From Thermomicrobium sp. 4228-Ro (GTDB lineage Bacteria > Chloroflexota > Chloroflexia > Thermomicrobiales > Thermomicrobiaceae): DNA of 64,000 bases. A model generated the notes under the pieces. It searched no databases. It was given only the letters and a program-made list of their open reading frames with translations, and was not told the origin of the DNA. Of this stretch, positions 11,609-15,465 are shown piece by piece. The position numbers and the translations under genes were made by a program. How positions within the stretch are numbered: the first letter of the stretch is position 1; the number at the start of each line of letters is the position of its first letter. The stretch lies in contig NZ_JAPFQM010000006.1 of the NCBI RefSeq assembly GCF_026241205.1, positions 1 through 64,000 on the forward strand, read 5' to 3'.

Positions 11609-12481
11609 TCAGTGTGGTACGAGCACCTCACCCTCGGCAACATGCTGCACGGTCCGCCCCAGCGTGAGCAGGGACAAGAGCAAGACCACGACCGGCCCGC
11701 TGAGCCACATGAGCAGGCCGCCAAATGCCTGGTCGGCCAGCAACCGGTCAGCCGGTAGTGCTCGCTCCACCAGATAGCGGTGGTACAAGACCCCCGGCCA
11801 GAAGGTGACCAGGGCCCCCAGAAGTCCCGCCTGAGAACCGTACAGTACCAGGTAGAATACCCGCCCTCCTTCGGTACGGAAACGCCCGCTCACCGGCGGC
11901 ACACCGACGAGCGGCCACCAGTACAGTAGGGCACCGAGGAAGAAGGTGATGTGCTCGATATCGTGCAACCAACGGCGCGTCAGGACCGCGTCGTAGAGCG
12001 GCGGGAAGTGCCAGACCCACAGCGATACGATACCTGCCCCCAAGGCGCTTGCCGGCGACGTCAGGACTCGCAAGAGACGCCCACCCGGCGACGAGCGCCC
12101 CAGTGCTCGCCCCACCGCTTGTCGCAGTCTCCGGGGCAATGCCCAAAGAAGGACCGCGAACGGCCAGCCCAGCAGCAGCACTGGCGCCGCGTACAAGAGA
12201 ACGAGGTGTTGCACCATGTGCCACGAAAAGAACAGGCCTCCGAACTCGTCGAGAGGCGAAAGCAGCGCCAGACCCAGCATCCCGACTCCGACGGTCCAGC
12301 AAGTAATGCGTCGCCAGACCGCTCGCATCGGTCTCCGGTGCTGGAGTCGAATCGAGCCCACCAGGTAACCCACGACGAGCCAACTCAGGCCGATCACGAC
12401 TGGCAACCGCCACGTCCAGTTCCGTGGATCGAACCATTCCGAAAGAGGTAGCCAGACGAGCGGCTCCACCACGGCGCTCAC
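11609..12481 (-). CDS. ctaG: CtaG-type heme-copper oxidase assembly factor
   Basis: This 290-residue integral membrane protein has seven or so hydrophobic helices and the His-rich pattern of the caa3-CtaG family: WHMVQHLVLLYAAP, VWHFPPLYDAVL and HDIEHITFFLGALLYWWPLVG. In Bacillus, CtaG is needed for formation of active caa3 oxidase and is thought to help supply copper. Here it sits in the same run as a CuA subunit II and a heme-copper subunit I, which fits a role in metallating that enzyme. The GTG start overlaps the stop of the FNT gene (GTGA), indicating translational coupling. Confidence 0.88.
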   Translation of the reverse strand: MSAVVEPLVWLPLSEWFDPRNWTWRLPVVIGLSWLVVGYLVGSIRLQHRRPMRAVWRRITCWTVGVGMLGLALLSPLDEFGGLFFSWHMVQHLVLLYAAPVLLLGWPFAVLLWALPRRLRQAVGRALGRSSPGGRLLRVLTSPASALGAGIVSLWVWHFPPLYDAVLTRRWLHDIEHITFFLGALLYWWPLVGVPPVSGRFRTEGGRVFYLVLYGSQAGLLGALVTFWPGVLYHRYLVERALPADRLLADQAFGGLLMWLSGPVVVLLLSLLTLGRTVQHVAEGEVLVPH

Positions 12482-13326
12482 TTCTCACCGTGGATCCACA
12501 CCAAGGGCAGACCGGTCAGTAACGCACCACCAGCGATGTTGCCCAAGGTGGCAGGTATCTGGTTCCAGATCCACCAGTCCCCAACACCGACCGGTGCCCC
12601 GACGAGCATCCCGGCTGGTATCACGAACAGGTTGACGACCGAATGCTCGTACCCCAACCCGAAGAAGGTCATGATCGGGAGCCACATCGCCACGATCTTC
12701 CCGACCGTCGACCGCGAGGCGAAAGCGAGCACTGTCCCGACGGTCACGAGCCAGTTGGCCAGGATGGCCTTCGTCAGGACGGTCAGCCAACCCAGCCAGC
12801 GCGCCTCACGATAGGCCACGGTCTTGGCGAGTGCCCAATTCGACAACTGTTCACCGATCGGGCCCGCTCCGTGAGTCCACCAGCCCGTGAGACTCGCCAC
12901 CGCCAGCGTCGCGAACGCTCCGGCACCGATGGCGTTCCCGAGAAAGACCCACCACCAGTTTCGAGCGACCTCCCGCCCCGTCACCCGGCGCGTGTACCAG
13001 GCGGCTGGCAAGAGAGCGAAGTTGCCCGTGGCCAGCTCCATTCCCAGCAGCACGAGCATGCAGAATCCGGCCGGGAACACCAGCGCTCCGGTCAGGCGCG
13101 GGAGACCCTGGGCCCATGCAGCAGCGGCAAGCAACGTCGCCGCGCCGAGCAGGCCGCCACTGACCGCCCCGCGCACGATCAACTGCAGGACTCCCAACCG
13201 GGCTTTTTTCTCTGCAGTATCGAGCAGTTGCGTCACCAACTCTCCTGGAGCCAGCGCGTCACCCTCGATCGACCGAGCTTCCCGTTTCGGGCGACTCTCG
13301 ATCTCGCGCACCGCGAACCCCCTCAC
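12478..13326 (-). CDS. Formate/nitrite transporter (FNT) family channel
   Basis: This 282-residue protein has a hydrophilic N-terminus and six hydrophobic helices with FNT signatures: GFCMLVLLGMELATGNF near the first half-helix and MTFFGLGYEHSVVNLF with the conserved His of the second half. FNT pentamers conduct formate, nitrite or hydrosulfide. The substrate cannot be read from sequence, but the neighbouring CuA-type reductase with NO-reductase-like active site makes nitrite a reasonable guess. It starts at a GTG 68 nt after subunit I and overlaps ctaG by 4 nt. Confidence 0.88.
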   Translation of the reverse strand: MRGFAVREIESRPKREARSIEGDALAPGELVTQLLDTAEKKARLGVLQLIVRGAVSGGLLGAATLLAAAAWAQGLPRLTGALVFPAGFCMLVLLGMELATGNFALLPAAWYTRRVTGREVARNWWWVFLGNAIGAGAFATLAVASLTGWWTHGAGPIGEQLSNWALAKTVAYREARWLGWLTVLTKAILANWLVTVGTVLAFASRSTVGKIVAMWLPIMTFFGLGYEHSVVNLFVIPAGMLVGAPVGVGDWWIWNQIPATLGNIAGGALLTGLPLVWIHGEK

Positions 13327-13393: not shown

Positions 13394-14878
13394 TCAGTCG
13401 TCCGCGGCCGGCTCGATCGCTGGGAGACGCCAGGCAGCCGGAACGCTCCGCACCACCATGAGGAGGAGCCCCGCGAAGGCAACCACGAGCAGCAGCACGA
13501 ACGGAACAGCGATCTGTGCGAGTCCCTGCCACTCGGCAAGGTGAACAGCATACCGGCGCGGCACGCTCTGGAGACCGGAAAAGAAGAACGCGAGCACGAA
13601 ACCGCCAGCGCCGATAGCGTACAACCACGCCAGGCGGCGTGCCGCCACGCTCCTCGCCCAGCCCTCGACGCCACTCAGCCGGTGGAAGAGATATGCCCAC
13701 GTGAAACCCGCCGCACCGAAGAGGTAGTACGAGTGGAAGTGCGCCGGTACCCACAGCGTATTGTGCATGACGTTGTTGACCGCGATCGTACCATCGATGA
13801 CCGCGGCCACACCGCCGATCGTCCAGCCCCACAACCCAGCGAGAACGAAGATGACCGGCGCTGACCAGCGCACCTGCGACCCATACAGGAGTCCCAGGCT
13901 TCCGATGATCGTCACGAAGAAGGCCGGTACGCCGACCGCGTACGAACCGAACTGCCCCAGGAGGTGCAGCGGCAGCGGCTGAGCGAAGTCCTGGTACAGA
14001 TGATGGAAGTAAGGAAGCAGCACCAGCACGATGACGAGGTTGAAAGCCAGTGCGACCGGAAAACTCATCTTGAACGACCGACCGGTGTAGGCCCCGAGAG
14101 TCGCATACACTAGCGCGACCGCAACGTAGATATTCAGATTCACGAGCGTGTGGCCGAACAGAAAGAGCATGTTCTTGGCGAAGAGCACGTCGAAACCGCT
14201 CACGAGGCCCAACAGCTGCGCGAAGATCGGAACCAGGTACACGACACCGGCCAGCACAGCGATCACGCCGTCCAGAGCGACCACCGTCGCGATGAGTTCG
14301 GGGCCAGTCGGCAGCGGCCGTTCACCGCTGGCCGGCCGTCGGAACAGCACGGGCCAAGCCAGCGCGTTCGCCAGGCTCCCGAAACGCCGACGAGCGCCCA
14401 GCAAGACCGCCAGGCACCACAAGAGGAACGCGACAGCCACGAGCGTGTAACCGAACAAGAAGCCCCAGGTCGCGCTCACTGGCCAGTCTCCGCGCACCGG
14501 TAGCGGATAGGTGGTCGTCCACCCCGCCGCAAATCCTCCGACCAGCGTCGCGAGAACGACGAGACCGGAACCGAGGAAGTAGACGACGTACGCGCTCCAC
14601 AACAACCGTGGGCTCAAACCGATGCGCGGAGCGATCACTGCGGACACCCCACCCAGCGAGGCGAGCAGAACCCCCGCCACCATGCCCGCACCGTGCAGGG
14701 TCATGATCCGATAGAACCAGCGTGGCCCGAGGTCGAGCCAGCCCGCATGCTGGAGCCGCATCGCGAGTCCGAGCAACCCCATCAGGAGGAAGACCGCGAA
14801 GCCAGTCAAGAGATAGACGAGCGCGGCTTGATCGACCGACCGCTGGAGCTGCTCACCGTTCGTCCTCACCGGTGCCAT
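13394..14878 (-). CDS. Heme-copper reductase subunit I with sNOR-like active site (NorY-type, putative NO reductase)
   Basis: This 494-residue, roughly twelve-helix protein has all heme and metal histidines: H62 (low-spin heme), H243, H292-H293 (non-heme metal), H372, H380 (high-spin heme) and H382 (low-spin heme), the last three in HNTLWVPAHFH. O2 reductases of the A and B types read GHPxVY at the metal-site helix, where Tyr is the cross-linked cofactor. Here the motif is G-H243-T-L-V-N247, with no Tyr and an Asn four residues after the His. cNOR and qNOR carry Glu at this position as an FeB ligand. Asn at this place, with a CuA subunit II, matches the sNOR (NorSY) group described in ammonia oxidisers. 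Reduction of NO to N2O is therefore inferred, not proven. The ATG follows GAGGAGGGG inside the end of the upstream gene. Confidence 0.82.
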   Translation of the reverse strand: MAPVRTNGEQLQRSVDQAALVYLLTGFAVFLLMGLLGLAMRLQHAGWLDLGPRWFYRIMTLHGAGMVAGVLLASLGGVSAVIAPRIGLSPRLLWSAYVVYFLGSGLVVLATLVGGFAAGWTTTYPLPVRGDWPVSATWGFLFGYTLVAVAFLLWCLAVLLGARRRFGSLANALAWPVLFRRPASGERPLPTGPELIATVVALDGVIAVLAGVVYLVPIFAQLLGLVSGFDVLFAKNMLFLFGHTLVNLNIYVAVALVYATLGAYTGRSFKMSFPVALAFNLVIVLVLLPYFHHLYQDFAQPLPLHLLGQFGSYAVGVPAFFVTIIGSLGLLYGSQVRWSAPVIFVLAGLWGWTIGGVAAVIDGTIAVNNVMHNTLWVPAHFHSYYLFGAAGFTWAYLFHRLSGVEGWARSVAARRLAWLYAIGAGGFVLAFFFSGLQSVPRRYAVHLAEWQGLAQIAVPFVLLLVVAFAGLLLMVVRSVPAAWRLPAIEPAADD

Positions 14879-14890
14879 GGTAGCCCCTCC

Positions 14891-15412
14891 TCACTCGACG
14901 GTGAACTGCGCCTGCATCAGGTGATGGCCAGTCGCGCAGAACTCGAGACAACGGATCGTGTAGACACCAGGTTCGTCGAACCGGTACAACAACCGGTTCG
15001 TGTACCCGGGCATCGCTTGCACCTGCGTGACGAGCCGCCCGTCCGGACTGAACACGCCGAACCCGTGATTCACGTCCGCGGCGGTCACCCTGAACTCGAC
15101 CACTTGACCGCGCGGGATCCTGGTTTGGCTGAGTTCCCACGCCCACATCCGTCCGGTCACCTCGACATGGACGGTCGGTTCTCCGAGTCGGGCAGCGCGT
15201 GAACTGGCGTACGGCAGAAACGCCAGCGAGACGACGAACGCGATACCGAGGACGACGACCACAGCCGGTGTACCCAGCCGACGGATCCGGCCGATGACAG
15301 GGCTCACGCGCTCGTACGGTGCCGCCGCTCCCGCGCGTGCCGCGACCCACCAGAGTACGGCCGTCCAGAGGACAGTCACGAGCAGAAAAAGCATGGCCGC
15401 TCCCGACTGCAT
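14891..15412 (-). CDS. CuA-containing heme-copper reductase subunit II (NorS/CoxB-like)
   Basis: This is a 173-residue protein with two N-terminal membrane helices (AMLFLLVTVLW and VVVVLGIAFVVSLAF regions) and a periplasmic cupredoxin domain. The complete CuA site is visible: a His in VNHGFGVF, then C-L-E-F-C-A-T-G-H-H-L-M, providing two Cys, a Glu backbone ligand, His and Met. CuA accepts electrons from a soluble cytochrome c or blue copper protein and passes them to subunit I. It is short for a CoxB protein. An ATG at 15412 after AGAGGGGGTG is preferred to a GTG nine codons upstream. It leads the operon, 12 nt before subunit I. Confidence 0.85.
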   Translation of the reverse strand: MQSGAAMLFLLVTVLWTAVLWWVAARAGAAAPYERVSPVIGRIRRLGTPAVVVVLGIAFVVSLAFLPYASSRAARLGEPTVHVEVTGRMWAWELSQTRIPRGQVVEFRVTAADVNHGFGVFSPDGRLVTQVQAMPGYTNRLLYRFDEPGVYTIRCLEFCATGHHLMQAQFTVE

Positions 15413-15465
15413 CGAGCACCCCCTCTCGCCCCTGCGCACTGGAAAGGATGTGTCGGTTCACGACG

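Follow-up and report, generated by a model that had tools for sequence, protein, structure and literature searches.

The heme-copper enzyme encoded in the window, by which we mean the whole 64,000-nt stretch of DNA analysed, taken from the 3.07 Mb genome of a Thermomicrobium sp., is a member of the sNOR (NorSY) family and a putative nitric oxide reductase, a function to which we assign a probability of roughly 75%. sNOR is an already proposed family and not a new one: reportedly, Murali et al. 2024 put it forward as a family of NO reductases and assayed only eNOR. PMC11388526 relays this proposal in the same sense. If active as inferred, sNOR would be a source of N2O in many phyla, and standard annotation files it under cytochrome oxidase.

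On the minus strand, the window carries the cluster NorS-NorY-FNT-CtaG: subunit II (NorS-type; 14891-15412), subunit I (NorY-type; 13394-14878, a 494-aa ORF), an FNT-family channel (12478-13326) and the oxidase assembly protein CtaG (Caa3_CtaG; 11609-12481), whose gene and that of FNT share a stop/start overlap. Subunit II most likely starts at the ATG at 15412, as the matching ATG is the annotated start of the T. roseum orthologue; the alternative GTG at 15439 would yield a 182-aa form. A flavin amine oxidase (PF01593; 10248-11600, minus strand) follows the cluster, a neighbour in Thermomicrobium loci only and probably not part of the enzyme. Pfam matched all four cluster proteins (COX1, COX2, FNT and CtaG), with E-values of 1e-61 for FNT (PF01226) and 5e-52 for CtaG (PF09678) bearing out the earlier mention of both in this run, and the two oxidase subunits score far below the family cut-offs of NCBIfam. 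The megaplasmid of T. roseum harbors this cluster as well (88-89% identity); there the annotation reads cbb3-type oxidase, FNT transporter and oxidase assembly protein, an example of the filing described above. Since this thermophile has a named and sequenced relative that is so similar, a protein that is probably heat-stable would be available for activity tests.

The six heme and metal histidines of subunit I that the sequence-only reading had described as retained (H62, H243, H292, H293, H380 and H382) are invariant across 39 aligned relatives, as is N247. At the sequence level, H62 and H382 mark a bis-His low-spin heme and H380 a high-spin heme, with H243, H292 and H293 forming a three-His metal site. 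The replacement of the O2-reductase motif GHPxVY by GHTLVN was likewise confirmed in alignments, with H243, a metal ligand, to N247, in place of the oxidase Tyr, at 14152-14138 on the minus strand. By class, alignment column 247 is Asn in 37/37 sNOR-type rows, Tyr in A and B oxidases, Gly in C oxidases, Glu in cNOR, qNOR and one further group, and Gln in the eNOR-type group. In the window enzyme, Asn thus stands both where cNOR and qNOR carry the FeB-ligating Glu on helix VI, as had been proposed, and where eNOR carries its Gln. At neither of the two known positions of the cofactor Tyr (247 on helix VI and 286 on helix VII) does any aligned family row have a Tyr, so that supply from another helix, a possibility raised at the outset, is not predicted at these places. 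An O2 reductase with a hidden helix VII Tyr, following the C-type pattern, was ruled out, because position 286, the Tyr site of C-type oxidases, is Val, Met or Ile in sNOR-type rows and V286 in the window enzyme.

Three further residues are specific to the clade and absent in other classes: Y251, D362 and Y384. Y251 is invariant and lies one helical turn past N247, extending the motif to H-x3-N-x3-Y. Moreover, Y258 sits at the site of the conserved K-path Tyr of B oxidases and residue 312 is a Ser or Thr, so that a K-type path may be retained in part, although sNOR has no predicted channel in a published table (PMC8756737). Subunit II has the complete CuA site that was claimed for it, with all ligands present in the 182-aa numbering (H125, C164 and C168 in a C-x3-C, H172 and M175), and aligns with the CuA domains of solved structures. 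Its two hydrophobic segments correspond to two N-terminal helices that precede the CuA domain, and the gene lies directly upstream of norY. The AlphaFold model of subunit I (pLDDT 90.7, pTM 0.91) adopts a heme-copper fold with 12 membrane helices and matches oxidases over its full length. There was no cNOR or qNOR structure among the fold matches listed, which speaks neither for nor against any class.

Could the enzyme be an unusual high-affinity O2 reductase instead, in which Y251 or another donor takes over from the cofactor Tyr? Such a role as a possible high-affinity oxidase has been argued for the sNOR of Nitrosomonas, transcripts of which rise under O2 limitation (PMC6967387), and the solved sequences and folds nearest to subunit I are those of oxidases. 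The invariance of Y251 in the 39 relatives and its absence from other classes would fit as well. Helix geometry, however, would place Y251, eight residues away from H243, beyond the reach of a cross-link like that made by a Tyr at i+4, and the genome already encodes A-type and B-type oxidases with a normal Tyr. Furthermore, NosZ is frequent in genomes with sNOR, being present in 27/50 of them versus 18/301 Chloroflexota, which is an uncontrolled comparison across phyla. We consider an oxidase unlikely. NO reduction is the best reading of the enzyme because the residue for O2 cleavage is missing clade-wide, NosZ is common alongside sNOR, and regulators of the NO-sensor type lie near several clusters; no NO-reductase assay of any sNOR was found in the literature searched, and the activity is what we infer from these three lines.

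Phylogeny places subunit I outside the O2 reductases, among which the earlier reading had asked whether it might nest. The H-x3-N motif was found in 82 rows overall. These were picked out by the Asn, so independent support comes from whole sequences, which also recover the clade. Both trees, a quick one of 74 proteins and a careful one of 45, were built without bNOR rows and set the Asn group apart by a branch with 100/100 support, the A, B, C, eNOR-type, cNOR and qNOR rows each being separate. In the careful tree, the A, B and C oxygen reductases and the Asn group each form one side of a branch with 100% bootstrap. NorY of Ruegeria pomeroyi falls inside the H-x3-N clade (100/100), and Silicibacter, now Ruegeria, is a named carrier of sNOR (PMC8756737).

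The sequence-only reading had taken the combination of Asn and CuA as the mark of sNOR. Membership of sNOR stood, but the combination is not sufficient for it, as bNOR (CuANOR) also has the Asn (PMC8756737 Table A4; PMC3475470). Bacillus carries two Asn enzymes: type I, the purified qCuANOR now called bNOR, has 13 helices and a one-helix CuA subunit, whereas the separate type II has 12 helices and a two-helix CuA subunit (PMC3475470). That the window encodes a bNOR such as that of B. azotoformans (BAZO_06394/06399), a biochemically proven NO reductase with the same active-site Asn and CuA (PMC3475470), is highly improbable: its 13-helix subunit I, one-helix subunit II and extra 46-aa subunit (PMC3475470) differ from the 12 and two helices here, which are those of type II, and the window enzyme groups with Ruegeria NorY in a tree without bNOR rows. 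The separation from bNOR is by helix counts against its published description only. Assignment to sNOR follows from the grouping with Ruegeria NorY together with the helix counts, which are 12 for subunit I (13 in bNOR) and two for subunit II (one in bNOR).

The closest known systems are the norSY-senC-orf1 clusters of Nitrosococcus oceani (Noc2971-2969) and Ruegeria pomeroyi (SPO_RS20760-20755), which are alike in the Asn site, the CuA-bearing subunit II and the NorS-NorY order. The NorY of Ruegeria shares the clade of the window NorY at ~38% identity. These clusters carry SCO/SenC and orf1, the usual downstream neighbours of sNOR, whereas both are missing at the window locus, which has CtaG instead, a trait of its subclade, and FNT between NorY and CtaG. 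The type II qCuANOR of Bacillus and Geobacillus (BAZO_04705/04710), likened here by description, shares the Asn site, 12-helix subunit I and two-helix CuA subunit (PMC3475470) but, unlike the window cluster, is linked to SCO and a protein of 4-5 helices. The ba3-type B-family oxidase of T. thermophilus (1ehk) has the same fold (TM 0.80, 22% identity) and CuA, and Y258 of the window enzyme lies at the place of the K-path Tyr of B oxidases; the T. thermophilus enzyme has the cross-linked Tyr, however, and B-family rows form a separate clade. Like the window enzyme, eNOR (H-x3-Q) has a non-oxidase residue at the Tyr position and a CuA subunit, yet that residue is Gln, it groups with B-family rows, and the Thermomicrobium genome has its own eNOR-type copy elsewhere. 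The latter (C6:735530-736912, plus strand; locus L003) shows GHGAQQVN with its own CuA subunit, and occurs in each of the four Thermomicrobium genomes with the highest completeness.

HMM searches of the neighbourhoods of 89 sNOR loci revealed distinct architectures: NorS-NorY-[FNT]-CtaG, NorS-NorY-SCO-orf1-[FNT], NorS-NorY-SCO-[FNT] and NorS-NorY alone. That of the window is the first, with CtaG replacing SCO. On an 85-row tree, linkage to CtaG and to SCO accounts for two changes apiece, and as such each marks lineages. The window enzyme belongs to the CtaG clade (support 100), together with Chloroflexota, Gemmatimonadota, SAR324 and others, and CtaG adjoins NorY nearly throughout its subclade. 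One CtaG-clade sNOR (L047) lies on a contig filed under a Methanomicrobiales archaeon MAG, which may be mis-binned. Rrf2 (NsrR-type) regulators were found within 5 kb in 7/89 sNOR loci, and NsrR has been described two genes from the sNOR of N. oceani (PMC3772326). Neither norQ nor norD was annotated in the sNOR neighbourhoods examined. In a Deltaproteobacterial/Myxococcota MAG (G309:C14; L139 and L148), genes for an eNOR-type enzyme, sNOR and NosZ all lie within 15 kb.

The window FNT channel probably moves nitrite, by analogy with its relatives: among solved structures it best matches LCIA (NAR1-type; 100.6 bits, next match 67), with which bicarbonate transport is also credited. NAR1 and the cyanobacterial NitM, relatives within the same FNT family, carry nitrite (PMC4390861). 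FNT adjoins 12/73 sNOR, a linkage for which the tree requires seven or more changes, whether gains or losses. Wherever it adjoins, the FNT gene lies downstream and in the same orientation, at 11/68 loci with 4.5 kb of downstream sequence versus 0/62 on the upstream side (Fisher P 0.0007, with no correction for kinship). A limited literature search found no report of an FNT-sNOR linkage. We tentatively suggest that a nitrite-type FNT works together with sNOR as a functional module that recurs in several unrelated bacterial phyla: nitrite movement would be tied to the reduction of NO, and the CuB site where this occurs would owe its assembly to CtaG in one subclade and to SCO in others, although we would favor this somewhat less than its opposite.

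The genome offers a context for NO reduction. Beside the A-type and B-type oxidases and the eNOR-type enzyme, it encodes an intact clade II NosZ; NirS was not found. NirK is broken, as ~190 internal residues are missing from its remnant (C1:1296750-1296983, minus strand; L024:1369-2013), in which the N-terminal domain is joined to the last 42 residues. NarG is reduced to a 66-residue piece with an adjoining NarH broken into frames (C1:498000-505000; L208), and is near full length in the congeners G126 and G182. On gene content, the remains of nar and nirK reveal a denitrifying ancestor. With no intact nitrite reductase found in the genome, no internal source of NO is known. The congener G126 has a different inventory: NirK, NarG and NosZ are intact, while NorY survives only as fragments with a stop and frameshifts (L019, G126:C2:106000-123000), NorS is not recognisable, and FNT and the amine oxidase are intact. 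The decay of nar and nirK here and the loss of sNOR in G126 together show that the genus has lost denitrification piecemeal; the strain of the window has retained the steps that handle NO and N2O. Of the same 50 sNOR genomes, only 8 have NirK. Within our Chloroflexota sample, sNOR also occurs in four members outside Thermomicrobium, none of which has NosZ (0/4), so that there sNOR and NosZ are associated only in Thermomicrobium.

One might then regard the cluster as a remnant of denitrification that is decaying and no longer has a function, given the broken nar and nirK and the congener that lost its sNOR. We give this hardly any credence: all four cluster genes are open, and dN/dS between the window and T. 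roseum (0.075 for NorY, 0.127 for NorS) indicates purifying selection, by which loss of function was ruled out. The distinct cluster architectures, the repeatedly changing FNT linkage and the decay of nar and nirK beside intact sNOR and NosZ all go beyond the earlier reading. Moreover, the FNT linkage and the eroded nar and nirK around an intact NO/N2O branch lead to concrete predictions on the origin of NO.

As a nitric oxide reductase, the window enzyme would catalyse 2 NO + 2 electrons + 2 protons -> N2O + water, with electrons presumably passing from a periplasmic carrier to CuA, heme b and the binuclear centre. Lacking a redox Tyr, the site would suit two-electron NO chemistry and not four-electron O2 cleavage, and Y251 and Y258 may carry protons. 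The B-site metal is probably CuB; copper rather than iron is suggested by CtaG or SCO beside the genes and by norQ and norD not being seen there, which are needed for FeB insertion in cNOR (PMC9976466). The NO consumed would be external or abiotic, and the N2O produced could pass to the intact NosZ.

Other heme-copper proteins surfaced in the same searches. Enzymes with HNLME (H-x3-E) in G126 and G182 (L204, L205) and at L161 and L163 form a separate group near sNOR in the tree (90/72); of these, the Thermomicrobium copies, at least, have a CuA subunit. Three proteobacterial genomes (L165, L166 and L167) encode highly divergent heme-copper-like proteins that show GHALQF and lack the HH metal-ligand pair, each ~3.5-5 kb away from a gene of the eNOR type.
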